Assembly (NCBI GenBank): GCA_019192455.1
Contig: JAHCML010000006.1
Span: 124,604-188,603 of the forward strand
From: Alphaproteobacteria bacterium SS10
GTDB taxonomy: Bacteria > Pseudomonadota > Alphaproteobacteria > TMED2
Direction of reading: 5' to 3'
DNA: 64,000 nt
The notes under the pieces are model-generated. The model had not been told where the DNA came from. It did no database searches and saw only the letters and a program-made list of their open reading frames with translations. How positions within the stretch are numbered: position 1 is the first letter of the stretch; each line of letters opens with the position of its first letter. Shown piece by piece: positions 3,977 to 64,000 of the stretch. The translations under genes were made by a program, and so were the position numbers.

Positions 3977-4993
3977 ATGTCCATTATTGCGAAGGCAACC
4001 AACCTTACCCGCCGTACAGCCCTAGGCCTACTCGGCGCCGCCACCCTGATCCCGGCAATCGCTGGCACCCCAGCCGCCGCATCAGACCTCAAACAAATCA
4101 CCATCGACTGGGCCTACTACAATCCAGTCAGCTTGATCCTCAAAGATCAGAAGCTGTTGGAAGATGAGTTCAAGGCTGACGGTATCCGCATCCGCTGGGT
4201 ACAGAGCCATGGCTCAAACAAGGCGATTGAGTTCCTGAACTCACGCAGTGCTGATTTCGCCTCAACCGCTGGGGCCGCTGCCCTGCTCGCCAAGATCAAT
4301 GGCAGCCCGATCAACGCCATCTATGTCTACTCAAAGCCTGAGTGGACCGCGCTGGTCACCAATCAGGACAGCGACATTCAAACCGTTGAAGACCTGCGCG
4401 GTAAGCGCGTTGCAGTGACCCGCGGTACTGATCCCTACATCTTCCTGCTGCGCGCACTCGCCGATCATGGCCTGACTGAAGACGACATCAAGCCGGTCCT
4501 GCTGCAGCATGCCGATGGTGGTAATGCACTGAAGCGTGGCCAGGTTGATGCCTGGGCTGGGCTGGACCCAATGATGGCTGGCCAAGAGCTGAAGGACGGC
4601 GCCCGCCTGTTCTTCCGCGATCCTGACCTCAACACCTATGGCTTCCTGAACACCCGGACGGCGTTTGCGGAAGAGCACCCGGAGATCGTGAACCGCGTCT
4701 TGAGCGTCTATGAGAAGGCCCGCGCCTACGCCATCGACAACCCGGATGTGCTGCGTGACACCCTCGCCAAGGCTGCCCGCCTTGAGCCAGCGGTCGCTGA
4801 AAAGCAGCTGGAGCGGACCGATCTTAGCAACCCGTTCATTGGTGCCGTTCACGCTGAACATATCACCGCCGCCGGCATCGCCCTGCAATCCAGCGGCATC
4901 ATCGCCGATGATGTGGATGTGGCCGGTAACACCAACGCGCTGATCGATACCCAATTCGTTCAGCCATTCGTTGAGAAACAAGCGTCGAACTAA
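3977..4993 (+). CDS. Sulfonate-type ABC transporter substrate-binding protein
   Basis: A 338-residue periplasmic binding protein of the SsuA/TauA/NrtT family (NMT1-like fold). It captures a small organosulfur compound, most likely an alkanesulfonate, for the permease and ATPase encoded next. The N-terminus has a twin-arginine-like export signal (LTRRTALGLLGAA at about residues 10-22, cleavage after AAA-S near 36). Typical family segments are ITIDWAYYNPVSLILKDQ, HGSNKAIEFLNSRSADFA and VEDLRGKRVAVTRGTDPY. A SAM-II riboswitch and terminator precede it, implying repression when SAM is plentiful and agreeing with a sulfur-scavenging role. The exact ligand cannot be read from the sequence; methionine derivatives are an alternative given the SAM control. 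Confidence 0.85.
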   Translation: MSIIAKATNLTRRTALGLLGAATLIPAIAGTPAAASDLKQITIDWAYYNPVSLILKDQKLLEDEFKADGIRIRWVQSHGSNKAIEFLNSRSADFASTAGAAALLAKINGSPINAIYVYSKPEWTALVTNQDSDIQTVEDLRGKRVAVTRGTDPYIFLLRALADHGLTEDDIKPVLLQHADGGNALKRGQVDAWAGLDPMMAGQELKDGARLFFRDPDLNTYGFLNTRTAFAEEHPEIVNRVLSVYEKARAYAIDNPDVLRDTLAKAARLEPAVAEKQLERTDLSNPFIGAVHAEHITAAGIALQSSGIIADDVDVAGNTNALIDTQFVQPFVEKQASN

Positions 4994-5017
4994 GCACCCT
5001 TAGTTCAAGACGTACTA

Positions 5018-5058
5018 CCCGGCCGCAGCGTCCTCCCTTCCCCTGCGGCCGGGTCTTT
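5018..5058 (+). terminator. Intercistronic GC hairpin with short T-run
   Basis: CCCGGCCGCA (5018-5027) pairs with TGCGGCCGGG (5044-5053) and is followed by TCTTT. It lies between the binding-protein gene and the permease gene. Such hairpins commonly let the abundant binding protein be made in excess over the membrane parts, through partial termination or 3'-end protection. A stem with nearly the same arms lies between dctP and dctQ at 15295-15319. Confidence 0.7.
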
Positions 5059-5097
5059 AACCCCGACACGAGAGCAAATGCTTTGAGGAACCGTGAG

Positions 5098-5946
5098 ATG
5101 AGCTCGATCACAGCAGATACAGCGCTAAACAGCGCCAAGCCGAGTGCACGCCGGTTCCGCCCATTTCAGTTTCTGAAAGGCCGCCTGACCTGGATTGAGC
5201 CGCTGATCCTTCCACTGTTGATCGCGGGTATCTGGGAGGGGGCCGCAAAGTGGGGTTGGATTGACGCCCTACTGCTGCCGCCACCAAGCGCCGTCGCCGA
5301 AGAGATTGCCTATCTCTGGCATAACCAAGACCTCGATTTACACATTCAAGCGACCGTTTGGCGGGTCGCTGTTGGCTTTGCCGCTGGTGCCATTGTCGCG
5401 ACCATTCTGGGCGCCATCACTGGCTATGCTGAGCGCGCGTTCCGGGCCATCGACCCGACCATTCAAGCGCTGCGCTCCATCCCATCCATTGCGTGGGTGC
5501 CACTGTTCATCCTGTGGTTTGGCATCTTTGAAGCACCAAAGGTTCTGTTGATCGCCGTCGGCGCCTTCTTCCCGATCTATCTCGGCCTCTCCACCGCTAT
5601 TCATGGCGCTGATCGTAAGCTGGTTGAAGTTGGCCGTGTCTACCGCCTGTCAGCCGCGGCGATGATCACCCGCATCCTGCTGCCAAGCTCACTGCCCGCC
5701 TACCTAACCGGCCTTCGTAATGGCCTGGCCCTAGGCTGGATGTTTGTCGTTGCCGCCGAATTTATGGGCGCCAGCGAGGGGCTCGGGTTTCTGCTAATCG
5801 ACGGTCAGATGACCGGCCGGGCCCAAACAATCATCGCCTCAATCTTCCTTTTCGCCTGCCTTGGAAAAGCCTCAGATTGGCTACTTGCCGGCCTCTCAAA
5901 GCCCCTTTTGAGCTGGCAGGATGACTTCCAATCAACGCGCGCATAA
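5098..5946 (+). CDS. ssuC: SsuC-type ABC transporter permease
   Basis: A 282-residue inner-membrane permease with about six membrane helices and the binding-protein-dependent transport domain. The cytoplasmic EAA-type loop is visible as VYRLSAAAMITRILLPSSLP near residue 180, which docks on the ATPase. The start is set at ATG 5098 because GAGGAA (5085-5090) gives a ribosome-binding site with 7-nt spacing; a TTG at 5083 would place that site inside the gene. It follows the binding protein after the GC hairpin and precedes the ATPase by 22 bp, forming a standard sulfonate-type importer. Confidence 0.87.
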   Translation: MSSITADTALNSAKPSARRFRPFQFLKGRLTWIEPLILPLLIAGIWEGAAKWGWIDALLLPPPSAVAEEIAYLWHNQDLDLHIQATVWRVAVGFAAGAIVATILGAITGYAERAFRAIDPTIQALRSIPSIAWVPLFILWFGIFEAPKVLLIAVGAFFPIYLGLSTAIHGADRKLVEVGRVYRLSAAAMITRILLPSSLPAYLTGLRNGLALGWMFVVAAEFMGASEGLGFLLIDGQMTGRAQTIIASIFLFACLGKASDWLLAGLSKPLLSWQDDFQSTRA

Positions 5947-5968
5947 CCGCTCATAAGGAACAAGAACC

Positions 5969-6775
5969 ATGAGCCTCGTTATCTCCTCTGTGAACCGACA
6001 TTTCGATCTGGATAAGGGCCGCCAGGTCCAGGCCCTCAAAGGCATCGACCTTGCTGTTGGCCAGGGTGACTTCGTTTGCCTGCTCGGCGGTAGTGGCTGC
6101 GGTAAGAGTACACTGCTGCGCCTCATCGCCGGGTTGGACCAGCCGAACAGTGGCAGCCTTACCCTGAATGGCACCCCCATCGACCAACCACGTGACGAGG
6201 TTGGCATCGTCTTCCAAGAGCCACGCCTGCTACCATGGCAACGGGTCTCCGCCAATGTGGGCTTTGGCCTTAAGGGTGTTGAGAAGGGGGCCAAGAAGGA
6301 ACGCATTCAAGGGATCCTGGATGAAGTTGGCCTTGGCGATAAGGGTAAGTCGTGGCCACGCCAACTCTCCGGCGGTCAGGCACAGCGTGCCGCCATCGCG
6401 CGCGCGTTGGTTCAGGCCCCAGAACTTCTATTGCTGGATGAGCCGTTCTCCGCGGTTGATGCCCTCACCCGCGCCGATCTGCACGAGCTACTGCTCGGCC
6501 TATGGCGGGAGCATGGCTTCACCACCATCATGGTGACCCACGACATTGATGAAGCCTTGGCCCTTGCCGACCGTATCGTTGTGATGGGTGCCAATCCTGG
6601 CCGCCTGGTCGGTGAAGTGCTGGTAAGTCAGCGCCGCCCACGCAATCCAAGTGCCCCGGGGCAGCAGCAGCTGCGCCGAACCATTCTAGACATGCTGGCC
6701 CAAGGCAAAGCCCGCCAGCCCGACCCCTCAACGAGAGAGAACCAAGATGACGAACAAATCCGACGCGTTGCGTGA
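5969..6775 (+). CDS. ssuB: SsuB-type ABC transporter ATPase
   Basis: A 268-residue ATP-binding subunit that powers uptake through the preceding permease at the cytoplasmic face. It shows Walker A GGSGCGKST (about residues 39-47), Q-loop FQEPRLLPW, ABC signature LSGGQ (about residue 133), Walker B LLLLDEPFSAVD and the H-loop TMVTHDIDEA-like segment. The FQEPRLLPW form of the Q-loop is typical of the nitrate/sulfonate/taurine branch. Its last 29 bp overlap the start of the OsmC gene in another frame, so the two are translationally linked. Confidence 0.9.
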   Translation: MSLVISSVNRHFDLDKGRQVQALKGIDLAVGQGDFVCLLGGSGCGKSTLLRLIAGLDQPNSGSLTLNGTPIDQPRDEVGIVFQEPRLLPWQRVSANVGFGLKGVEKGAKKERIQGILDEVGLGDKGKSWPRQLSGGQAQRAAIARALVQAPELLLLDEPFSAVDALTRADLHELLLGLWREHGFTTIMVTHDIDEALALADRIVVMGANPGRLVGEVLVSQRRPRNPSAPGQQQLRRTILDMLAQGKARQPDPSTRENQDDEQIRRVA

Positions 6776-7265
6776 GCTTCAGGCACCCTTAAAAGCGCAA
6801 TACCGTGAAGATCCGGATAGCGCGGTTATCACCCTGAAAGCTGATGGAGAGCTAGAGAGTGACAAGATCGTCTGTAAGGTCGATACGGGTAAAGCGCTGG
6901 TCGAAGCTGGCCTCCACCCCGCAACCGGTGGTGACGGGCTCTCCGCTTGCTCCGGTGACATGCTGTTGGAAGCCCTCGTCGCCTGCGCCGGCGTTACCCT
7001 TAAAGCGGTTGCCACGGCACTCGATATCCAGGTCCGTTCCGGCCAGGTGAAGGCCGAGGGCGACCTCGATTTCCGTGGCACCCTCGGTGTCGATCGGGAA
7101 GCTGCAGTCGGCTTCCGCGATATTCGCCTAACCTTTGAGTTGGACACAGACGCCGATGATGAGCAGGTGGCAACCCTGCTCAAACTCACCGAGCGCTATT
7201 GCGTGGTGCTTCAGACCCTGCAAGCGGGCCTGACCATCGACAGCAAGATCAAGGTCGCTGCTTAA
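6747..7265 (+). CDS. OsmC-family protein
   Basis: A 172-residue OsmC/Ohr-superfamily protein, the last gene of the riboswitch-controlled operon. OsmC proteins use paired cysteines to reduce organic hydroperoxides or handle reactive sulfur compounds. The family core is visible as LSACSGDMLLEALVACAGVT (about residues 70-89), supplying the two cysteines, and the C-terminal RYCVVLQTL segment with a third. It overlaps ssuB by 29 bp and shares 4 bp convergently with ilvE. Its place in a sulfonate importer operon suggests a role in processing or detoxifying the imported sulfur compound (inference). It could equally be a general peroxidase. Confidence 0.8.
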   Translation: MTNKSDALRELQAPLKAQYREDPDSAVITLKADGELESDKIVCKVDTGKALVEAGLHPATGGDGLSACSGDMLLEALVACAGVTLKAVATALDIQVRSGQVKAEGDLDFRGTLGVDREAAVGFRDIRLTFELDTDADDEQVATLLKLTERYCVVLQTLQAGLTIDSKIKVAA

Positions 7266-8206
7266 GCGAGCTCGGCCTGCTTTGCCTGCTCGGATGATGT
7301 GTTGGCCAACACCGACACATCACCGGTCGGCGACTTGTTCACCAGTGCGGTGTAGTCGTCGATCAACAGCTGACAAACCGATCCTGGCGTGAAGGTCATC
7401 TCATCGATCTGACCAACCGGCGTGACTTCAGCGGCGGTGCCACAGATGAACACCTCTTTCGCCTGGCTAATCTCGTTCGGCATGATCGCCCGCTCAACGA
7501 TGTCGATCCCACGATGCTTCGCAATATCGATCACGGTTTGGCGGGTGATGCCATCGAGGAAGCAGTCGGGCGTCGGCGTGTGCAGCTTTCCATCAGGCAT
7601 CAGGAAAAAGATGTTAGCGCCGGTCGCCTCAGCCACCTGCCCACGATAGTCGAGCATTAGGGCGTCGTGAAAACCTTCACTCTCAGCGGCGTGCTTGGAG
7701 AGGGTACAAATCATATAGAGGCCCGCAGCCTTCGCATGGACTGGCGCACATTCCGGGGCCGGACGACGCCAATCGGCGGTCTTCAGCTTAATGCCTTTCA
7801 TGCGGGCGGCTGGATCAAAATAGCTGGGCCATTCCCAGGCCGCGATGGCGAGGTTGATTTTGGTCTGCTGGGCCGAGATGGCCATCATCTCCGTGCCGCG
7901 CCAAGCGACAGGACGGACATAACCATCAACAATGCCGGCCTCTTCAATCACGGCCTTACAAGCGGCATCGATTTCATCGGCCGTATAAGGGATCTTCATG
8001 TCCAAGGTGGAGGCGGAATAGATCAGGCGCTCGGTATGCTCACGCAGTTTAAAGATCTCACCGCCGTAAACCCGTTCGCCTTCGAAGACGGAACTGCCAT
8101 AATGGAGGGCGTGTGAGAGCACATGCAGCTTGGTATCACGCCAAGGCACCACGGTGCCGTTGATCCAGATATGACCATCACGGTCATCGAACGGAATTAT
8201 TGACAT
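7262..8206 (-). CDS. ilvE: Branched-chain amino acid aminotransferase IlvE
   Basis: A 314-residue class IV PLP-dependent aminotransferase that makes or degrades leucine, isoleucine and valine by transamination with glutamate. The N-terminus has IWINGTVVPWRDTKLHVLSHALHYG-type family features. The PLP lysine is in VHAKAAGLYM (about residue 160), and the C-terminal FICGTAAEVTPVGQID block is characteristic. Length is usual. It is divergent from the marR-type gene (76 bp apart) and convergent with the osmC gene. It supplies no direct link to the adjacent sulfur operon. Confidence 0.92.
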   Translation of the reverse strand: MSIIPFDDRDGHIWINGTVVPWRDTKLHVLSHALHYGSSVFEGERVYGGEIFKLREHTERLIYSASTLDMKIPYTADEIDAACKAVIEEAGIVDGYVRPVAWRGTEMMAISAQQTKINLAIAAWEWPSYFDPAARMKGIKLKTADWRRPAPECAPVHAKAAGLYMICTLSKHAAESEGFHDALMLDYRGQVAEATGANIFFLMPDGKLHTPTPDCFLDGITRQTVIDIAKHRGIDIVERAIMPNEISQAKEVFICGTAAEVTPVGQIDEMTFTPGSVCQLLIDDYTALVNKSPTGDVSVLANTSSEQAKQAELA

Positions 8207-8242
8207 GGTTTGGTGTCCATTTTGTTATTTTGTGACTCTCTA

Positions 8243-8273
8243 TTGATTGTTTCGCGTAACATTCGCCTATAGA
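8243..8273 (+). promoter_or_regulatory. Candidate promoter of the MarR/two-component operon
   Basis: TTGATT (8243-8248) and TATAGA (8268-8273) are separated by 19 bp in the 76-bp gap between divergent ilvE and the MarR gene. A start 6-8 nt further would leave almost no leader before ATG 8283, which has no clear ribosome-binding site. A leaderless or near-leaderless mRNA is possible. Confidence 0.3.
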
Positions 8274-8282
8274 AATGTCAAC

Positions 8283-8828
8283 ATGACTGACATATCTCCA
8301 TCTGCTGATCCGCTGTTCCTACGGGAGGAAAACCTCCGTCGTGGGATCGAAATGATGTTCTTCGCTTATCGGGACTTCACCGGCAAACCCGATGAAATCC
8401 TTAGCGAAATTGGGCTGGGCCGGGCGCATCACCGCGCGCTGTACTTCATTGGCCGCCATCCGGGCATCAATGTGTCAGAGCTGCTATCGATTCTGCGCAT
8501 AACGAAACAATCCCTGTCCCGGGTGCTTAGCCAGCTGATTGACCAAGAGTTCGTTGAGCAACAGACCGGGGTGCAAGACCGCCGCCTGCGCCTGCTGCAC
8601 CTGACCGATAAAGGTAAGGATTTGGAGCAGCGCCTGACCGATGTGCAAAAGCAGCGTTTCGCCGCCGCCTTCAGCGATGCCGGGGCGGAAGCGGTTGAAG
8701 GTTTCCGCAATGTCCTGCTTGGCATGATTGCCGATGAGGATCGCGCCCGTTTCGATGAGGATGATCCAGGTACACCTGAAGACCCAGCAACACCGCTGGG
8801 TTGGAACCCAAGAAGTGCCAATGGCTGA
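8283..8828 (+). CDS. MarR-family transcriptional regulator
   Basis: A 181-residue winged-helix repressor or activator. The DNA-binding core is NVSELLSILRITKQSLSRVL (about residues 63-82) followed by the wing GVQDRRLRLLHLTDKG. The C-terminus (DEDDPGTPEDPATPLGWN) is acidic and unstructured. I start at ATG 8283 (MTDISPS), since the longer frame from 8247 runs into the promoter area. It overlaps the next gene by 8 bp and so forms an operon with the response regulator and kinase. It may also control the divergent ilvE (inference). The ligand is unknown. Confidence 0.85.
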   Translation: MTDISPSADPLFLREENLRRGIEMMFFAYRDFTGKPDEILSEIGLGRAHHRALYFIGRHPGINVSELLSILRITKQSLSRVLSQLIDQEFVEQQTGVQDRRLRLLHLTDKGKDLEQRLTDVQKQRFAAAFSDAGAEAVEGFRNVLLGMIADEDRARFDEDDPGTPEDPATPLGWNPRSANG

Positions 8829-9585
8829 CACCGCCACACCACCGCCAGTAGAACCGGATGAGGCAACCGCAGAGGCGCCGCACATCCTTGTGGTGGATGA
8901 CGATAAACGCCTGCGCCGGTTGTTAAGCCGGTATCTCGGAGAGAATGGGTTCCGGGTGACCGTGGCAGAGAATGCCGAGCAAGCCCGTCGTCAGTTCGGC
9001 GGCCTACAATTCGACCTAGCCGTACTAGATGTGATGATGCCGGGCGAAGATGGCACGGACCTGACGGCCGCCATCCGGCGCGGCGACGGTATGTCTGCCG
9101 ACCACCAGCACTTGCCCATTCTATTGCTCACCGCCCGGGCGGAAGCAGAGGATCGGATTAAAGGGCTAGAGGCGGGTGCCGATGATTACCTGCCCAAGCC
9201 ATTTGAGCCGAAGGAACTTCTGCTTCGCATCAACTCGATCCTACGTCGTTCAGCGCCACCACCGGCGCCAGCTGAAACGGTAAGCGAGGGTCCAGTCCGG
9301 CTTGGTCGCTGGGTCTTCAACCCGGATCGTGAAGAACTGATCGGTGAGGATGAAACCGTCCGCCTAACCCAGACCGAGACCAAGCTGTTGCGCGCGTTGG
9401 CCAAGCGACCAGGCGAAATTGTCTCGCGGGAAGAACTTGGCGATGGGGCTGATATGGGCAGTAATACCCGCACTATCGATGTCCAGATCACCCGCCTACG
9501 CCGGAAGGTTGAGGTTGATCCCAAAAACCCGCGCTTCCTGATGACCGTTCGAGGGGAAGGCTATGTCCTCCGCCCTGGCGAATAG
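8821..9585 (+). CDS. OmpR-family response regulator
   Basis: A 254-residue two-component response regulator. The receiver domain (residues about 20-135) has the acidic pocket VVDDDKR, phosphoacceptor Asp70 in LAVLDVMMPG and the switch lysine in DDYLPKPF. The C-terminal winged-helix DNA-binding domain (about 155-250) includes LTQTETKLLRALAKRPG and TIDVQITRLRRKVE. The start ATG at 8821 lies inside the end of the MarR gene. The kinase gene begins 23 bp before this gene ends, so the three are transcribed together and the partner kinase is clear. Targets cannot be inferred. Confidence 0.92.
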   Translation: MADTATPPPVEPDEATAEAPHILVVDDDKRLRRLLSRYLGENGFRVTVAENAEQARRQFGGLQFDLAVLDVMMPGEDGTDLTAAIRRGDGMSADHQHLPILLLTARAEAEDRIKGLEAGADDYLPKPFEPKELLLRINSILRRSAPPPAPAETVSEGPVRLGRWVFNPDREELIGEDETVRLTQTETKLLRALAKRPGEIVSREELGDGADMGSNTRTIDVQITRLRRKVEVDPKNPRFLMTVRGEGYVLRPGE

Positions 9586-10996
9586 CGATAAGCCCAATAA
9601 CCCTACAAAGCCTGGCGACCCAACGCCTGGGGAGTTTGGCTATTACGAGCATGCGCTAACGGTTCGGCGGCGCCCCCGATCCTGGCTGAAGAAGATCCTG
9701 CCGCGCACGCTGTTTGGGCGTGCCCTAATGATCATCGTGACACCGGTCGTCCTGGTGCAGATGATCGCAACTATCGTCTTCTATGACCGGCACTGGGACA
9801 CCATCTCTGAGCGTCTCTCAAAAGCCGTTGCGGGTGAGATCGCCCTGGTCGTTGGCGAGCTTGAGCGTGATCCCTCACCGGCAAACCAACAGCGCCTGTT
9901 TGACCTGGCGGCTGATAGCACGGCCCTGCTCTTCTCCTACACCCCCAATGCCACCATTGACCCAACATCACCGCGCGAATGGTGGGACCCCTATCTCCGC
10001 CGATGGCTGAACCAATCAATTGCCGAGAAGATCCCATACAGCTTCCGGGTCGATCCTTGGTTTGCCCAGGACTGGGTTGAGATCAGCATCCAGCTTGATG
10101 ATGGCGTCTTGCGGGTCATCGCACCGCTGCGCCGGTTCTTCAGTTCCACCATCTATGTCTTCATCCTTTGGATGGTTGGATCATCGGTGCTGCTGTTCTC
10201 AATCGCCATCATCTTCATGCGCAACCAGATCAGACCGATTAGGCGGCTTGCCCATGCGGCAGAGGCCTTCGGTAAAGGCCGCGAACTGCCGGAGACGTTT
10301 AAGCCTGAGGGGGCGGATGAAGTTCGCCAGGCTGGTATCGCCTTTATGGTCATGCGCGACCGGCTGATCCGCCAGATCGAACAGCGCACAACGATGCTCG
10401 CCGGTGTCTCCCATGACCTTAGGACCCCGCTAACCCGGATGAAGTTGCAGCTTGAGATGATGGGTGATGAGGAAGAGGTCGATGATCTGCGCAGTGACCT
10501 CACAGAGATGGCCACAATGCTTGAGGGGTACCTCGCCTTTGCCCGTGGTGAGGGTGGTGAGGACACCAGCAACACCGATCTCTCAACCATGGTTCAAGAG
10601 ATCGCCAATGATGCCAGGCGCCAGGGCGTGGAGATGCATGAACGCGTTGACCCGGGCATCCGGCTTCCCGTCCGGCCAATGGCATTGAAGCGCGCATTAA
10701 CCAATCTGGTAACCAATGCGGGCCGCTATGGCACCGCGTGCTGGCTGTCCCTGACCAGAGAACCAAAGCGGGTCATCATTGCGATTGATGACAATGGCCC
10801 CGGCATCCCCGCCGATCAGCGTGAGGATGTCTTCAAGCCGTTTATGCGCCTCGACCCATCGCGCAATGTGGAAACCGGCGGCATTGGCCTCGGGCTCACC
10901 ATCGCTAGGGACATCATCCGCCGCCATGGTGGTGATATCTTGCTGGATGAGAGCGCGCGCGGCGGCCTGTCCATTACCGTGATCTTGCCCGTCTAA
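9563..10996 (+). CDS. EnvZ-like sensor histidine kinase
   Basis: A 477-residue inner-membrane histidine kinase. A first membrane helix (about residues 51-74), a ~120-residue periplasmic sensor region, a second helix (about 196-218) and a HAMP linker precede the catalytic part. The H-box is GVSHDLRTPLTRMK with His284; the N-box LTNLVTNAGRYG, G1 DDNGPGIP and G2 GIGLGLTIARD follow. The start ATG 9563 has an excellent ribosome-binding site (GAGGGGAAGG, 9551-9560) lying within the response regulator gene. It phosphorylates the regulator encoded just upstream. Confidence 0.92.
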   Translation: MSSALANSDKPNNPTKPGDPTPGEFGYYEHALTVRRRPRSWLKKILPRTLFGRALMIIVTPVVLVQMIATIVFYDRHWDTISERLSKAVAGEIALVVGELERDPSPANQQRLFDLAADSTALLFSYTPNATIDPTSPREWWDPYLRRWLNQSIAEKIPYSFRVDPWFAQDWVEISIQLDDGVLRVIAPLRRFFSSTIYVFILWMVGSSVLLFSIAIIFMRNQIRPIRRLAHAAEAFGKGRELPETFKPEGADEVRQAGIAFMVMRDRLIRQIEQRTTMLAGVSHDLRTPLTRMKLQLEMMGDEEEVDDLRSDLTEMATMLEGYLAFARGEGGEDTSNTDLSTMVQEIANDARRQGVEMHERVDPGIRLPVRPMALKRALTNLVTNAGRYGTACWLSLTREPKRVIIAIDDNGPGIPADQREDVFKPFMRLDPSRNVETGGIGLGLTIARDIIRRHGGDILLDESARGGLSITVILPV

Positions 10997-11211
10997 ACGA
11001 AGCATTACCGCGGCGTTAGCCTGACAGCCTCTGCCGCTATTCACGGAACCTTCATCACCAGGTGAGCAAGCTTGGTCAGATGGAGCTTTCCGATTCCCCA
11101 TATGCACGCCATACTCATGTCGCGGTGCACCAAAAGGGTGCCCAAGGCACCCGCACCCATACCGGTCATGATTGGCTGGCGGTTCTGCTGGATCGGGGGA
11201 ATGCCGAGAAT

Positions 11212-12369
11212 ATGCTGGGCTATCGGATAACGATTTTCCGCCTCTACGGCTTCGACGTTCATGTCGATATTAGCTGGTTTATTCTCTCTGCCCTAATCAT
11301 GTGGACCCTGGCGGTGAATTACTTCCCGTCCGCCTATGCTGGCCTGCCGCCAGAAACCTATTGGCATATGGGTATCGCCGGGCTGATCGGCCTCTGCTTC
11401 TCCATCGTCATGCATGAAATTGGGCACGCCCTCGTTGCCCATTACTTCAAAATGCGGATCGGCGATATCACGCTTTGGATCTTTGGCGGCGTCGCCGATA
11501 TGGATGAAGAGCGCCAGGTTCCGAAGCATGAGTTGCTCATGGCCTTAGCTGGTCCCGCCATGTCGGTCGCCTTGGCCGGCGTCTTCTATTTCGGGTTCCA
11601 TGTTGCTGGTGGATATCGTGAGCAGACGGTGATCAGTACCCTCGCCGCCTATCTCATCGTGGTTAATCTGGCCCTAGCGATCTTCAATATGATCCCGGCC
11701 TTTCCGCTCGATGGCGGTCGGGTGTTACGGGCCGCCCTTTGGCATTGGCGTAAGGACCGCTTATGGGCGACCCGAATGGCTGGCCATGCCGGGTCAGCGC
11801 TGGCATTCCTGCTGGCCGTCTGGGGGACCGCACAGGTGATGGATGGCAATCTGTTGGGCGGCCTTTGGGGCTTCCTGCTCGCCATCTTCATCACCAACGC
11901 CGCTGAGAATAGCATACGCGACGCAACGGCCCATTCGGTCTTTACCGGGCATCCGGTTAGCCGGTTTATGCGCGCCGATGTGGTGACGGTCACCCGCGAC
12001 CTGTCGATTGAAGACTTCATCAACGACTACGTTTACCAGCACTATATGAAGGTGTTTCCGGTGGTTGAGAATGGGCGCCTAATCGGTCAGGTATCGGTGG
12101 ACGCCATTCGCGGGACGGATAAGGGCCAATGGCCCTGGCGAACGGTGGGCGACTATATAACCGCCGTTACCCATAATACGATCATCGATCCGCAAGCCGA
12201 CGCAGCGGACGCCATCGACCGCATGCGCCAGTCCGGCGCGGCAAGCCTAATGGTGATGCATGATGGCGAGTTCTTAGGCCTCGTATCCCTACGTGACCTA
12301 CTGCACCTACTATCGATGAAACTGCGCCTGGAGCCTGAGTTATCGGCCCGCAGTACCGGTGGTAGCTAA
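11212..12369 (+). CDS. Site-2 protease family metalloprotease with CBS domains
   Basis: A 385-residue M50 intramembrane zinc protease. Zinc ligands are in MHEIGHAL (HExxH, about residue 69) and the third ligand in FPLDGGRVLRAALW (about residue 167), within roughly six membrane helices. Two CBS modules follow (about 250-375: SRFMRADVVTVTRDLSIEDF and VTHNTIIDPQADAADAIDRM), which usually sense adenine nucleotides. Members cut membrane-bound regulators such as anti-sigma factors, or mature small proteins. I start at ATG 11212 (MLGYRITIFRLYGF), matching the family N-terminus; in-frame starts further upstream (11062, 11080) add a non-family 50 residues. Confidence 0.87.
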   Translation: MLGYRITIFRLYGFDVHVDISWFILSALIMWTLAVNYFPSAYAGLPPETYWHMGIAGLIGLCFSIVMHEIGHALVAHYFKMRIGDITLWIFGGVADMDEERQVPKHELLMALAGPAMSVALAGVFYFGFHVAGGYREQTVISTLAAYLIVVNLALAIFNMIPAFPLDGGRVLRAALWHWRKDRLWATRMAGHAGSALAFLLAVWGTAQVMDGNLLGGLWGFLLAIFITNAAENSIRDATAHSVFTGHPVSRFMRADVVTVTRDLSIEDFINDYVYQHYMKVFPVVENGRLIGQVSVDAIRGTDKGQWPWRTVGDYITAVTHNTIIDPQADAADAIDRMRQSGAASLMVMHDGEFLGLVSLRDLLHLLSMKLRLEPELSARSTGGS

Positions 12370-12380
12370 CGCGACGTTAG
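12366..12380. terminator. Small hairpin at a convergent gene end
   Basis: CTAACG (12366-12371) pairs with CGTTAG (12375-12380) around a 3-nt loop, spanning both stop codons of the convergent protease gene and pyrE. On the plus strand TCGGTTTT follows. A weak shared terminator is possible. Confidence 0.3.
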
Positions 12381-13066
12381 TCGGTTTTGCCGCCATGCTC
12401 AGCTGACCAGGTCACAGGCTTTTTCAAGAAGGCCTCAACGGTCTTAACCGTATTGCTGTCGAGATACTTCTCTTCCTTCGCAACCTTCAGCACATCCCAC
12501 CAGGTGGTAAGTGAGTGGAGCTTAATCTCAAGCTCAGCCATGGTGTTCAGGCTGGCGTCAAAGATGCCGTAATGGAAGATAACGAAGGTGTCGTTAACCT
12601 CAGCGCCCGCTTGGCGCAGCGCATCGACGAACCGAACCTTAGAACCACCATCGGTGGTGAGGTCTTCCACAAGTAGAGTGCGAGCCCCCTCTGGCAGATC
12701 ACCCTCAATCTGCGCCATCCGGCCAAAGCCCTTTGGTTCTTTGCGCACATAGCACATCGGCAGATTGAACCGCTCAGCCAGCCAAGCGGCGAACGGGATA
12801 CCGGCGGTCTCACCACCAGCAATGCAATCAAAGCTCTCAACGCCCACATCGCGGATAAGCGTGGTGACGGCAAAGTCCATCAGCAGCTGACGAGCGCGCG
12901 GGAATGCGATGATCTTCCGGCAGTCGATGTAGACCGGGCTCTTCTTACCTGAGGTGAAGGTGAAGGGCTCTTCAGCGTTGAAGTGCACCGCTTCAATCTC
13001 AAGCAGCGTACGGGCGGCAACCTCGGCAATCTGCGAGCGGTCGGGCAATCCAGCGATAAGGGTCAT
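12377..13066 (-). CDS. pyrE: Orotate phosphoribosyltransferase PyrE
   Basis: A 229-residue type I phosphoribosyltransferase that converts orotate and PRPP to orotidine monophosphate in pyrimidine synthesis. The PRPP-binding loop is clear as [16 protein letters not shown] (about residues 129-144), and [13 protein letters not shown] (about 82-94) is also typical. [12 protein letters not shown] near residue 45 is another family segment. It begins at ATG 13066. It stands alone on the minus strand, 137 bp downstream of the TRAP permease stop codon. Confidence 0.93.
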
Positions 13067-13203
13067 GGTTCGAACCTTGGATCCCGTTAGGGATCAGTGT
13101 GGGGGGAGATGGCTTATCGGCGATCCAGCCGACAATGCGCGTTTTGTAGGCCCCCACACCTACAAGCGCAACTGCAATCCCCAAGCGTGAGATCAGTTCT
13201 TCA

Positions 13204-14592
13204 CTAGCCATAAGCGACTTCAGGTAACCACAGCACCAAGTCGGGGAAGAAGAAGACCAAAGCAATCGCTGTCAGCTGCAACAGGACGAAGGGGATAATG
13301 CCCTTATAGATGTCCATGGTCGTCACTCCAGGGGGCACCACCCCCTTGAGATAGAACAGCGAGAAGCCCACCGGCGGTGTTAGGAACGATGTCTGCAAAC
13401 TGACCGCAAACAAAACCACGAACCAGTACAGCTGATCCTCGCCACCAAGGCCGAGCACATCGAGGTCCAGGCCAGCCACAACCGGCGCCATGAGCGGCAG
13501 GAAGATCAAGGTGATCTCAAGCCAATCAAGGAAGAAACCGGCCAGGAATGCCAGGAACAGGATGAACACGACGATGCCGACATCTGGCAGCGGCAGGCTG
13601 GTCAGCACGTGCTCAATGAACGCATCACCGCCGAGCCAACGCATGGCCAACGCAAAGGCGCTAGCGCCGAGGAAAATGCCGAAGATGAAGGCCGTGGTCA
13701 GCATGGTCTGCCGCCCAACCTCATCAATCACCTTCCAATTTAGTTTCTTATTGGCGAAGGCGAGCACGGTCGCGCCAAAGGCACCAATACCCGACGCCTC
13801 GGTCGGTGTTGCGATACCGAAGAAGATCGAGCCAAGAACCGCCAAAATCAGAACAATCGGCGGCACAACGGCCAGCAGGGTCTCAAAGATCAGCTTGCCA
13901 GTAATCGGTGGCAGGCCGGTCGGGGCCGGCGCCAGGTTCGGCTTAATGTTCGCGGCCACCAGGATATAGGTGATGTAGAGCAGGCCCAGCATAACGCCTG
14001 GAACCAGCGCCCCCATGAAGAGGTTACCAACCGACAGTGACAGCTGGTCGGCCATGATCACCAGCATAATCGATGGCGGGATCAGAATGCCCAGCGTACC
14101 AGCCGAGGCACAGACGCCAGATGAGAACGCCTTGGAATAGTTCTGCTGCAGCATGATCGGCATGGACAGCACGGCCAGCAGAACCACCGAGGCGCCAACG
14201 ATGCCGGTAGAGGCGGCAAGCAGGATACCGATGATCACCACGGCAAGTGCCAGGCCACCGCGGAACCGGCCAAAAACCTGAATGAACTTTTGCATCAGGT
14301 TCTCGGCGATGCCCGATCGCTCAAGCATCAAGCCCATGAAGATGAACATGGGCAAGGCGACGAGAACCCAGTTCTCCATCAACGACCAAACCCTGTCGAC
14401 GATCGAGCCAAAGCGCGACCAATCATTCATGAAATAGGTGTCGAGGTCGTAGAACTCAGCGCCATAAACACCGATACCGGCGAAGATGAACGACAAACCA
14501 CCCAGCAGCCAAGCAACTGGAAAACCGGTGAAGAGCGTCAGGATGAACGCGCTCAACATCACGATCACAATGATTTCGTACTGCTCTAGCAT
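13204..14592 (-). CDS. dctM: TRAP transporter large permease DctM
   Basis: A 462-residue integral membrane protein with about 12 helices, the ion-coupled core of a TRAP importer. Family marks include TGFPVAWLLGGLSF near the N-terminus, CASAGTLGILIPPSIMLVI in the middle and TATPTEASGIGAFGATVLA-type sequence later. ATG 14592 (MLEQYEIIV) is preferred over the ORF extension to 14631, which adds a hydrophilic non-family leader. It is the last gene of the dctP-dctQ-dctM unit, 96 bp after dctQ. The subfamily resembles carriers for keto-acids, aromatic acids and similar carboxylates. Confidence 0.88.
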   Translation of the reverse strand: MLEQYEIIVIVMLSAFILTLFTGFPVAWLLGGLSFIFAGIGVYGAEFYDLDTYFMNDWSRFGSIVDRVWSLMENWVLVALPMFIFMGLMLERSGIAENLMQKFIQVFGRFRGGLALAVVIIGILLAASTGIVGASVVLLAVLSMPIMLQQNYSKAFSSGVCASAGTLGILIPPSIMLVIMADQLSLSVGNLFMGALVPGVMLGLLYITYILVAANIKPNLAPAPTGLPPITGKLIFETLLAVVPPIVLILAVLGSIFFGIATPTEASGIGAFGATVLAFANKKLNWKVIDEVGRQTMLTTAFIFGIFLGASAFALAMRWLGGDAFIEHVLTSLPLPDVGIVVFILFLAFLAGFFLDWLEITLIFLPLMAPVVAGLDLDVLGLGGEDQLYWFVVLFAVSLQTSFLTPPVGFSLFYLKGVVPPGVTTMDIYKGIIPFVLLQLTAIALVFFFPDLVLWLPEVAYG

Positions 14593-60095: not shown

Positions 60096-60284
60096 GGTGC
60101 GCCCCGCTTTGTTTTATCGTTAGAACAAAAGCTTAGCGGATCAACACAACCATCGCCAACCCACCATCAGCAACACACGGTTGGATCATGCCTCTCCCTG
60201 CGCGCCCCGCGACTTCCCAAGGCGTTGCGCGAGGAGCAGGCTCTTAACCGGGGGATGGGCGTTGCAACCGATTGGTGCAGTGTG

Positions 60285-61031
60285 ATGACGTTTAAAGACC
60301 ATTTCTCAACCCAGGCCGCCACCTATGCTGCGGCCAGGCCTCGCTACCCCGACGGGCTGTTCGCCTATCTGGCTGATGCCTCGCCAGCACGGGATGCCGT
60401 GCTTGATGTCGCCACCGGCAATGGGCAGGCCGCACTCTCCCTTGCCAAGCACTTCCGACAAGTGACCGGCATCGACGGCTCCCAAAACCAGATCGACAAC
60501 GCGACACCGGCTGAGAACGTGCATTATGAATGCGCAAAGGCTGACGCCCTGCCGCTGCCGGATGAGAGTGTTGATCTAGTCACCGTCGCCCAGGCGCTGC
60601 ATTGGTTCCCACTAGAGGAGTTCTACGCCGAGGCACGACGTGTGTTGCGGCCGAAAGGGCTGATCGCGGCTATCACCTACAACACGCCGAGGTTCGACAG
60701 CCCGGATATCAATGATGCGGTCGATATCCTTTATGAGGATATTCTGGGCCCTTACTGGCCACCGGAGCGGCGACACGTTGAAGCTGGCTACACCGATCTG
60801 CCCTTCCCCTTTGACCCGATCACAGTGCCGGACTTTGAGATGACCACCCAGTGGTCCTTGGAGATGCTGACCGAGTATGTAAACAGCTGGTCAGCCACCA
60901 ACATCTATAAGCGTGAAACCGGGATCGACCCGGTTCCAGATGCCATGCCAAAGATTAAGGAAGTGTGGGGATCACCGGATCGCATCAGGCTGGTTCGGTT
61001 CCCGTTAAGCGTGATTGCTGGCCGCGCCTAA
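60285..61031 (+). CDS. Class I SAM-dependent methyltransferase
   Basis: A 248-residue methyltransferase. Motif I is AVLDVATGNGQAALSLAKHF (about residues 40-59), followed by GIDGSQNQIDNATP, VDLVTVAQALHWFPLEEF (about 100-117) and VLRPKGLIAAITYN, a pattern of small-molecule methyltransferases. The substrate is unknown. ATG 60285 (MTFKDHFSTQ) is preferred to 60225 because SVM-type leader codons precede a family-like start. It overlaps the convergent flavoprotein gene by 4 bp at its stop codon. Whether it belongs with the right-edge locus is not known. Confidence 0.82.
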   Translation: MTFKDHFSTQAATYAAARPRYPDGLFAYLADASPARDAVLDVATGNGQAALSLAKHFRQVTGIDGSQNQIDNATPAENVHYECAKADALPLPDESVDLVTVAQALHWFPLEEFYAEARRVLRPKGLIAAITYNTPRFDSPDINDAVDILYEDILGPYWPPERRHVEAGYTDLPFPFDPITVPDFEMTTQWSLEMLTEYVNSWSATNIYKRETGIDPVPDAMPKIKEVWGSPDRIRLVRFPLSVIAGRA

Positions 61032-62392
61032 TCGGCGAACTCTCGATCCTTGAGCTTCAGCAGACGGTCAACAACATCCGTCTCCTTATGCCCGGTCATA
61101 AGCATGTGAACATTCTCAAGGTTCGCGACCCAGCGGAAGCTTTGAATATCGCTGTTAATCGGGCGGTCAAAGATTTCGCGGATCTCTGTCGCCGCCTTCA
61201 TCCACTCTTTCGGGCAATGCTCGTCTTCTGGGCGATACCAGAGCGAAATCACATGCTGCAGCGCCTTCACCTCAGCGCGGTAATGCTCATGGATCTCGTT
61301 ATAAGAGCCCTGGGCATCATCACGTTCACCGGCCAGAACCTGGGCAACCGTTCGACCAGCCAAGCCACCGAACGAGACACACAGCGTGACACCCTGTGAC
61401 AGCAGCGGGTCGAGGAAACGGGCGGCATCGCCAACCGCAATCCAATTAGCACCGGAGGTCACCGTACTCTCATAAGAGTAGTCAGGGTGCCGGTAATGGT
61501 GGTCCGGGTCCTGCGGATTGCCGAGGTAGTCGACCACATTAGCCTGATCAAATTTGAACAGCTTCGCTTCAGGCATGTCGTTCAAGCGCTTGAAGAAGCC
61601 ACCTTCCCATTCATCAGACACAATCCCGACCGAGATCAGGTCGTCCTTCAGCCTGGCAATCCAGGCCCAGCCACGGCCGAATGAGATGATGTTCGATCCT
61701 TCTTTATAGAAGCCGAGCTTCTCCGCCTCCTCGTACTCAATCTTACTGAAGTAGGTGTAGCGGGAAGACATGGCCCGAATGCTAAGCGGGACACGTTTGC
61801 CAATCTTCTTAGGAATGATCGCGGCCTGGCCACTGGCATCAACCACCTGCGCTGGGCGGATCTTTTCCTCGGTGCCATCGGGATGCTCTAGGGACGCGCC
61901 CATGACCATGGTGTGCTCACCCTGGCTAGCGATCCGCAGATCCTTAACCTTCGCTGGAATGAACTTGGCACCACGCTTGATAGCGATATCGAGAAGGGTT
62001 CGGTCAAACTCATGGCGCGGCACCATCATGGTGTACCAATCACCATCTTCGGCGACCAACTCCTCGGGATAGTCACCGCGATCCACATCGGCAACCCACG
62101 GATCTGAGTTGTGAACCCGCCAGGGGGAACGATCTTTGCCATGAACAAAGGTGAAGCCAAATTTGCGGCCCCAGCCATGACGCTCTTGGGCTGCCTTGAT
62201 CTCTGGAACCAGATCAAAGCGGTCGAGCTCCATCATGGTATTGGTCAGTAGAATTTCGCCGATACGATGTCGTTCACCCGGATCTTTATCGACAATCACA
62301 ACCCGCAGCTCCGGGTTCTCTTTAAGCGCCCCAATCGCGGCCATACAGCCGGCAGGCCCAGCACCAATCACCAGAACATCGACAGAATTCAT
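61028..62392 (-). CDS. FAD-dependent oxidoreductase, flavin-halogenase-like
   Basis: A 454-residue flavoprotein of the halogenase/geranylgeranyl-reductase group. The dinucleotide motif VLVIGAGPAGCMAA is at residues 5-18, and HRIGEILLTNTM (about 42-53) corresponds to the GESLLP motif. The lysine that is catalytic in halogenases is kept in GRKFGFTFVHG (about 74-84). The halogenase signature WxWxIP is present only partly as GWAWIARL, so Ala-Arg replaces Ile-Pro and true halogenase activity is uncertain; reduction or oxidation is an alternative. A 37-codon frame overlaps its start (TGATG), and a radical SAM gene is divergent upstream. Confidence 0.8.
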   Translation of the reverse strand: MNSVDVLVIGAGPAGCMAAIGALKENPELRVVIVDKDPGERHRIGEILLTNTMMELDRFDLVPEIKAAQERHGWGRKFGFTFVHGKDRSPWRVHNSDPWVADVDRGDYPEELVAEDGDWYTMMVPRHEFDRTLLDIAIKRGAKFIPAKVKDLRIASQGEHTMVMGASLEHPDGTEEKIRPAQVVDASGQAAIIPKKIGKRVPLSIRAMSSRYTYFSKIEYEEAEKLGFYKEGSNIISFGRGWAWIARLKDDLISVGIVSDEWEGGFFKRLNDMPEAKLFKFDQANVVDYLGNPQDPDHHYRHPDYSYESTVTSGANWIAVGDAARFLDPLLSQGVTLCVSFGGLAGRTVAQVLAGERDDAQGSYNEIHEHYRAEVKALQHVISLWYRPEDEHCPKEWMKAATEIREIFDRPINSDIQSFRWVANLENVHMLMTGHKETDVVDRLLKLKDREFAD

Positions 62393-62505
62393 CAGGTCTT
62401 GCCCCCAAAAACATCGAACCCCACGGCAATGTCTGATCGCCTAAAGCGTTCAAAATCAAAACCGTATAGGTCAGCAAAATACTGCAATTCAGTAATCTGT
62501 GCCAT
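62392..62505 (-). CDS. 37-residue peptide translationally coupled to the flavoprotein
   Basis: ATG 62505 opens a 37-codon frame whose TGA shares bases with the flavoprotein ATG (TGATG at 62394-62390), a classic coupling overlap. An in-frame stop lies five codons upstream, so the start is fixed unless a rare codon is used. The peptide begins MAQITELQYFADLYGFDF and ends GFDVFGGKT; it is rich in Phe, Tyr and Asp and has no Trp or Cys. It could be a modified-peptide precursor for the flavoprotein and the divergent radical SAM enzyme, or merely a leader ORF. Third-position GC is low and no good ribosome-binding site is seen. Confidence 0.4.
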   Translation of the reverse strand: MAQITELQYFADLYGFDFERFRRSDIAVGFDVFGGKT

Positions 62506-62684
62506 CGCGGACCAAGCTCAACCCCGCGCCAAATGTCGCTCTTGCCTGCCAACAACGCGATCCGGGCGTGACCTACGGCAAATTGACCGGCGTCTCCCGC
62601 TGCGCGCCAAAACAGTTAAATATATGGATTTATTGCGAAATTCTGACAGACTAGGTTGGACAAACACCCTTTAGGATAGCGATT

Positions 62685-62768
62685 GTGCGGATCAGTATCG
62701 GCACAGAGTTGCCCAATTGGTGGATATGCTCAAAAATACGCTATCTCGATGGGAAGCAGGGATTTTGA
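62685..62768 (+). CDS. Possible 27-residue peptide upstream of the radical SAM gene
   Basis: GTG 62685 with AGGAT (62673-62677) upstream opens a 27-codon frame that ends 9 bp before the radical SAM ATG. It encodes LPNWWICSKIRYLDG in its middle, an aromatic-rich stretch. Two ATA codons and its size make chance likely. Recorded because of its position before a radical SAM gene. Confidence 0.2.
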   Translation: MRISIGTELPNWWICSKIRYLDGKQGF

Positions 62769-62777
62769 TGGATTGGG

Positions 62778-64000
62778 ATGCTTGATCGGGCAGTAAATAC
62801 AGGGCCAACAGGCAGCAACGGACCGCCGGGGGTCAATGGTTCGTCTGAGCTGTTGGACACCCTGATCATCAATCTGGATTATGTTGGCAGCTGCGCCGGC
62901 AGCTGTCCCGTCTGCGCGTTGAGTGCCATTGAGCGCAAGCGGCAGCAGGCCTTCCTAAACCTTGATCAGATCGAACACGCGCTGGATGAGGCAGCGGCCC
63001 AAGGTGCCACCCAGGCCGAAAACCTGGTTCTCGGCATTGGCCGGGGAAATGTGCTCGACCTTGGCCCAGACACTGCTGACCGCCTGAATGAAATCGCCCA
63101 TGCAGCGAGCGATCGGTTCCAGTTCAATCATGGCCTGGCGGAGATTGCGACCTCTGTGATGGGCCGCCTCTCAGACCAGATTGAGAGCGCCACCCGTATT
63201 CATGAACAGATGACCAGCGCCAGCCACGGTATTGATCCACGCTTTGTCGTGGTTGCCAACGCGGCCAACACCTCGGCGAAGTATTGGGAACATCTCTGTT
63301 CATTTATCGACCATATGAGTGGGCTGCGCGGGCACGGTGATGGGTCAGGCAATATCTTGCTGATCAACTTATCGCTTGGCGATCTGCCGCCAGTTGAACA
63401 GTTGCTCGAGTTCGTCGGCCACTACCGCTTTCCGGTCAATGTCACCTGGGCCCCACCAATTGATCCCGTGGGCAATGAGCCCGCACGCTATGAGGCGTTA
63501 GAGGAATGGTTGTTGAAATGGTACGCCGCCTCAGTCAGCAACGGGATGGATAGCAGCCTGGTTCAGCGAACTAAGGAGGCCATGTTTAGCAACAGCCTCG
63601 ATATGGGTGACCTAAGGGCGCAAATTGATGGCCATGGCAATATGCTGCTGGTCGTCGATAACACCGGTGACCTGCATTACGGCTTCTCCTCCGTCAGTGC
63701 CGATATGGACCCCGTGCGATTTGCCAGCGGCGCCAGCCAAGGTGTTCAGCAACCGGCAAATGGCGAGAACCAGCGCATGGTGAAAACCCCAGCGCATGAG
63801 CTGGCAAAGCTGGTGCGCTGGCGGACCTGCCGGGCCTGCCCATATCTTGCCGCCTGTGTTGTGTCCGGTGGCTATAAGTCTGGCCTTCTGACAATTGACC
63901 GGTTGCTAGAGAATGAGGCACCGGTGACAGCGGATGTTTGCCCATCCGGCCTGCGCAGTGTTTTCCGGCATCATGATGAGCATGTGCTTGGCGATCATGA
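62778..64000 (+). CDS. Radical SAM protein with a SPASM/twitch-like C-terminal cysteine cluster (partial)
   Basis: At least 407 residues, open to the window end. The radical SAM 4Fe-4S motif CX3CX2C is at Cys39, Cys43 and Cys46 (GSCAGSCPVCALS), and a glycine-rich segment GIGRGN follows at the expected distance. The C-terminal part has CX2CX5C (Cys351, Cys354, Cys360) and a further Cys388, matching part of a SPASM or twitch domain that binds an auxiliary iron-sulfur cluster; the first SPASM cysteines are not seen. Such enzymes modify peptides or other substrates by radical chemistry. The start is ATG 62778. It is divergent from the halogenase-like gene across about 270 bp. Confidence 0.78.
   Translation, partial: MLDRAVNTGPTGSNGPPGVNGSSELLDTLIINLDYVGSCAGSCPVCALSAIERKRQQAFLNLDQIEHALDEAAAQGATQAENLVLGIGRGNVLDLGPDTADRLNEIAHAASDRFQFNHGLAEIATSVMGRLSDQIESATRIHEQMTSASHGIDPRFVVVANAANTSAKYWEHLCSFIDHMSGLRGHGDGSGNILLINLSLGDLPPVEQLLEFVGHYRFPVNVTWAPPIDPVGNEPARYEALEEWLLKWYAASVSNGMDSSLVQRTKEAMFSNSLDMGDLRAQIDGHGNMLLVVDNTGDLHYGFSSVSADMDPVRFASGASQGVQQPANGENQRMVKTPAHELAKLVRWRTCRACPYLAACVVSGGYKSGLLTIDRLLENEAPVTADVCPSGLRSVFRHHDEHVLGDH

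Follow-up and report, generated by a model that had tools for sequence, protein, structure and literature searches.

We describe here a legitimate, unproven candidate small gene of 37 codons (positions 62392 to 62505, minus strand), which overlaps by one base the start of a gene for a halogenase-like flavoprotein and lies between it and the divergent gene for a SPASM-like radical SAM protein, in a window that comprises the whole stretch of 64,000 nucleotides analysed. Translation of this frame, in coupling with the flavoprotein gene, seems about as likely as not, and the likeliest role for its product would be as a substrate for the flavoprotein and the radical SAM enzyme. Nearly as likely, the frame is open by chance, in the AT-richer 5' part of the flavoprotein gene, and gives no product. 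The interest of the locus lies mainly in its rare pair of enzymes.

The frame reads MAQITELQYFADLYGFDFERFRRSDIAVGFDVFGGKT, followed by TGA, and is bounded upstream by an in-frame stop, with 41 codons from stop to stop. Its stop codon (62394-62392) and the start codon of the flavoprotein (62392-62390) have base 62392 in common within a TGATG junction (62390-62394, minus strand). Both the overlap and the upstream boundary had been pointed out in a preliminary description of this DNA, and both were borne out. The codon after the TGA is also a TGA (TGATGA). The peptide contains 6 Phe, 2 Tyr and 4 Asp among its 37 residues, neither Cys nor Trp, and the motif GFD twice (residues 15-17 and 29-31). 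Inspection of 40 bases revealed no Shine-Dalgarno-like purine run close to its ATG.

By itself the overlap is weak evidence for coding. When 5000 dinucleotide shuffles were made of the 385 bases that separate the two divergent starts (flavoprotein and radical SAM), 9.7% of them contained a frame that opened with ATG, was 37 or more codons long and terminated on the start codon; moreover, 20 other overlapping upstream frames occur near 198 long ORFs. With the TGATG ending required, the proportion was 2.5% of 5000 shuffles. The survey of ORFs covered 264 kb and admitted any candidate start in the first 30 codons, so that one gene may count twice (60281, 60284); of the 32 upstream frames of 25 codons or more that it listed as overlapping, 11 are long genes and 21 are non-gene frames, among which is the 37-codon frame. 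As the flavoprotein gene opens with ATGA, the peptide frame, at -1, had to end there anyway. The shuffle rate, this forced stop and the 21 non-gene frames all speak for a chance frame, as do the other frames of similar length that fill the same intergenic region and the longer antisense frame that crosses it.

The best positive evidence for the frame is its amino-acid composition, which modestly exceeds chance. We compared it with 129 intergenic frames of 25 to 60 codons from 264 kb of the genome, using log-odds of long genes versus short intergenic frames, the background frequencies being drawn from these same 129 frames, peptide included. The peptide ranked second of the 129. Ranks 1 and 3 were parts of real genes truncated where the analysed stretches end (FUR and DnaB_C matches); the frame in fourth place lies over the DnaB piece, on the opposite strand. 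The score of the peptide (0.20) lies inside the range of gene pieces (mean 0.11, standard deviation 0.11). This placement next to real gene pieces argues against a chance frame and strengthens, as far as composition goes, the earlier suggestion that a short gene may have escaped gene callers here. The richness in Phe, Tyr and Asp noted previously was also confirmed, the peptide having the highest Phe+Tyr+Asp fraction of all 129 short intergenic frames. Dinucleotide shuffling gave 12 or more such residues just 56 times in 10000, which likewise tells against chance, with the reservation that the three residues were picked after seeing the peptide; when any three residues could be chosen freely, the peptide's own top-three total was reached in 3438 of 10000 shuffles, so that richness in some three residues is ordinary and fits a chance frame.

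Codon usage gave a different picture. Ranked among 36-codon gene pieces, the peptide's synonymous-codon score comes at the 3rd percentile; of non-coding shadow frames, 43% score as high. Third-position GC was 0.46, versus 0.66 in genes, and the combined codon score was matched or beaten by 7.8% of 1121 short frames located inside genes in other frames. Composition thus argues moderately for coding, and part of this weight is taken away by a codon choice that is not gene-like and would suit a chance frame. For a translated gene we count the composition rank, the top Phe+Tyr+Asp fraction, a TGATG junction as in coupled genes and fitting neighbours; against it, the codon choice, the third-position GC, the shuffle rate and the missing Shine-Dalgarno run, together with the results of the searches given below (no relatives, 0 of 11 loci, no PqqD).

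No sigma-70-like promoter, terminator or Rfam match turned up in the rest of the region that separates the two divergent genes (62506-62777). An ATG frame of 135 codons (62267-62674, plus strand) lies antisense to the peptide and to the start of the flavoprotein gene. A GGGGG run occurs a short way upstream of the flavoprotein ATG, and RNA folding predictions gave the region a stability only slightly above that of shuffled sequences (z -1.5, with 19 of 200 shuffles as stable). The TGATGA junction and the GGGGG run would suit a frame that serves coupling alone, as a leader peptide: ribosomes finishing it would start again on the flavoprotein ATG and open the start region, and the peptide would have no substrate role. 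The slight excess in RNA stability points the same way. We consider this reading improbable, since coupling needs neither a gene-like nor a Phe/Tyr/Asp-rich sequence, and the search for terminator-like or Rfam elements yielded none.

The flavoprotein gene (61028-62392, minus strand) encodes 454 amino acids and belongs, judging by family matches, to the FAD-dependent halogenase/monooxygenase-like proteins of the CmlS/CndH/QhpG/LodB group. Its start is firm: no ATG, GTG or TTG occurs in frame between the upstream stop and its ATG, and the FAD-binding GxGxxG motif (GAGPAG) follows directly. A methyltransferase-like gene (60225-61031, plus strand) converges on it, and the two ends overlap by 4 bases. 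The protein matched the Trp_halogenase family PF04820 with 52.6 bits (cut-off 21). It also matched the CmlS, QhpG, LodB and GoxB models, all below their cut-offs, including QhpG with an E value of 3e-28 (98.7 bits, cut-off 240) and CmlS with 129 bits (cut-off 900). Its best solved relatives were 3nix, an unnamed flavoprotein, then the halogenase 3e1t, which we take to be CndH, and CmlS (3i3l), followed by PltA-type enzymes; a peptidyl tryptophan dihydroxylase was also among them. The flavoprotein groups with halogenases and hydroxylases that act on carrier-bound substrates or on peptides, QhpG included.

Lys K77 of the flavoprotein aligns with a Lys of 3e1t. WxWxIP is the halogenase motif, and both this motif and the aligned Lys have a functional role in such enzymes. 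In the halogenase SrpI a Lys is described as essential (PMC10858898). In our flavoprotein WxWxIP is incomplete, reading GWAWIARL, and GWFWAIHL in a relative from Rhizobium. The protein thus has the Trp_halogenase domain and the FAD motif expected of a putative FAD-dependent halogenase of the CmlS/CndH type, together with an incomplete WxWxIP, and its sequence cannot separate halogenation from hydroxylation.

The radical SAM gene (62778-64000, plus strand) runs 18 bases past the end of the window and encodes 413 amino acids. The protein carries CAGSCPVC and a SPASM-like C-terminal Cys cluster (RTCRACPYLAAC...VCPSG), whose Cys residues are common to its Rhizobium relative. It lies far from every family model, with only 12.2 bits against Pfam Radical_SAM (cut-off 29.5), and the QhpD model (TIGR03906) was not among its listed matches. 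As stated earlier, the frame has a halogenase-like flavoprotein and a radical SAM protein as its neighbours. Beyond the end of the window, 3' of the radical SAM gene (positions 4627-7334 of stretch L002), lie genes for three proteins without family, of 289, 333 and 282 amino acids. The 289-residue protein and its Rhizobium relative have an EHKH...GE.G.HP stretch in common. Structure models were poor, with a pLDDT of 55 for the 282-residue and 43 for the 289-residue protein. From its model, which resembles SnoaL-like proteins weakly, the 282-residue protein may begin with a SnoaL-like domain.

Relatives of the peptide beyond chance were found neither in its own genome nor in 384 other genomes of the class, plasmids, PDB, Pfam, NCBIfam or PHROGs. 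Four weak matches in other genomes were taken as chance. Three of them lie inside open frames of more than 500 codons; the fourth, on stretch L029, is a distinct frame of 55 codons immediately preceding another gene, presumably clpS by its appearance. A conserved short frame before homologous flavoproteins, for which the preliminary description had proposed to look, was present at none of the 11 loci inspected, including the closest one (33% identity). Three of these 11 loci have a long overlapping frame (226-351 codons) that resembles a real gene. With identities of 24-33% in the aligned part, all 11 are distant, and the missing frame there does not settle the question. Closer relatives of the flavoprotein or the radical SAM protein were not found in genome_contigs, viral_contigs, the class (385 genomes) or the phylum (398 genomes), the source genome being counted in both. 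The searched set contains no other member of the family or order of the source genome, and therefore offers no fair test of conservation. The lack of detected conservation is nonetheless what a chance frame would give.

Among plasmids, the only match of the radical SAM protein (35% identity) was on NZ_CP140867.1 of Rhizobium leguminosarum. The same plasmid carries the best of the plasmid matches of the flavoprotein (33%; 61 records, the upstream region being inspected for this best one), about 360 kb from the radical SAM relative. A 50-residue frame before this Rhizobium flavoprotein was discarded as spurious, being the end of a 224-codon frame that crosses the intergenic region. Around the radical SAM relative, about eight radical SAM/SPASM-like genes form a cluster that carries no annotation (6546-13687 of stretch L011; 14810-16827 and 19384-21721 of L011 joined to L013). 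One of these eight or so genes is distantly similar to DarW, a peptide maturase, and the cluster also includes relatives of the 289-residue (26%) and 333-residue (24%) proteins. A search of this cluster for the peptide yielded no relative, the best matches having an E value of 0.3. The cluster further contains a 319-amino-acid protein without family, followed by pilin-like and secretion-like frames recognised by eye.

Taken together, these data leave the earlier proposal of a precursor peptide plausible. According to the translated-gene reading, the short gene would be translated and coupled to the flavoprotein gene through TGATG, and the peptide would be the ribosomally made substrate of the locus. 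The substrate role taken alone, which we infer by analogy, is possible, if on the doubtful side. The SPASM-like radical SAM enzyme might cross-link or otherwise modify the Phe/Tyr/Asp-rich part; since the peptide has no Cys, this would be C-C or C-O chemistry and not the formation of thioethers. The flavoprotein might halogenate or hydroxylate an aromatic residue, which, given the lack of Trp, would be Tyr9, Tyr14 or a Phe. It is unlikely that the peptide founds a new precursor family, in which the radical SAM enzyme would make cross-links at carbon, the coupled flavoprotein would halogenate or hydroxylate Tyr or Phe, and the three downstream proteins would help. If translated, the frame would provide the missing substrate for a rare flavoprotein and radical SAM locus, and halogenase-type and radical SAM chemistry would be joined on one small peptide free of Cys and Trp; nothing specific on such a combination was found in the literature. 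Either way, the locus represents a rare radical SAM branch, two companions of which (289 and 333 amino acids) are common to the plasmid cluster of about eight radical SAM-like genes in Rhizobium.

Among known systems, the stretch SDIAVGFDV recalls, by eye, what we take to be the core region of PqqA. Membership in that family was rejected: PF08042 did not match the peptide in hmmscan, and the only weak match of a whole-genome search lay elsewhere. The PqqD-like recognition domain PF05402 gave no match over its cut-off in the whole genome. As regards the features of RiPP precursors, the position beside the enzymes fits and the composition is gene-like, the synonymous codons are not, and a conserved leader or core was found neither in the 11 distant loci nor in 384 other genomes of the class. 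RRE-independent RiPP systems exist, according to one report, which also presents SrpI as a flavin-dependent halogenase that acts on a ribosomal precursor and has no recognition domain of its own (PMC10858898). SrpI is likened here by description; in its proteusin precursor, SrpE, the leader is unusually long and the target is a Trp at the C-terminal end, whereas our peptide has 37 residues and no Trp. Compared with the halogenases CndH, CmlS and PltA, which are solved-structure relatives, the flavoprotein keeps K77 but retains WxWxIP only in part. A tested precedent is QhpC/QhpD/QhpG, in which a single small polypeptide with its gene close by is acted on both by a radical SAM enzyme and by a flavoprotein resembling CmlS (PMC7876137). 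There QhpD forms thioethers between Cys and Asp/Glu, and QhpG dihydroxylates Trp; the peptide here has neither Cys nor Trp, which excludes the exact Qhp chemistry.
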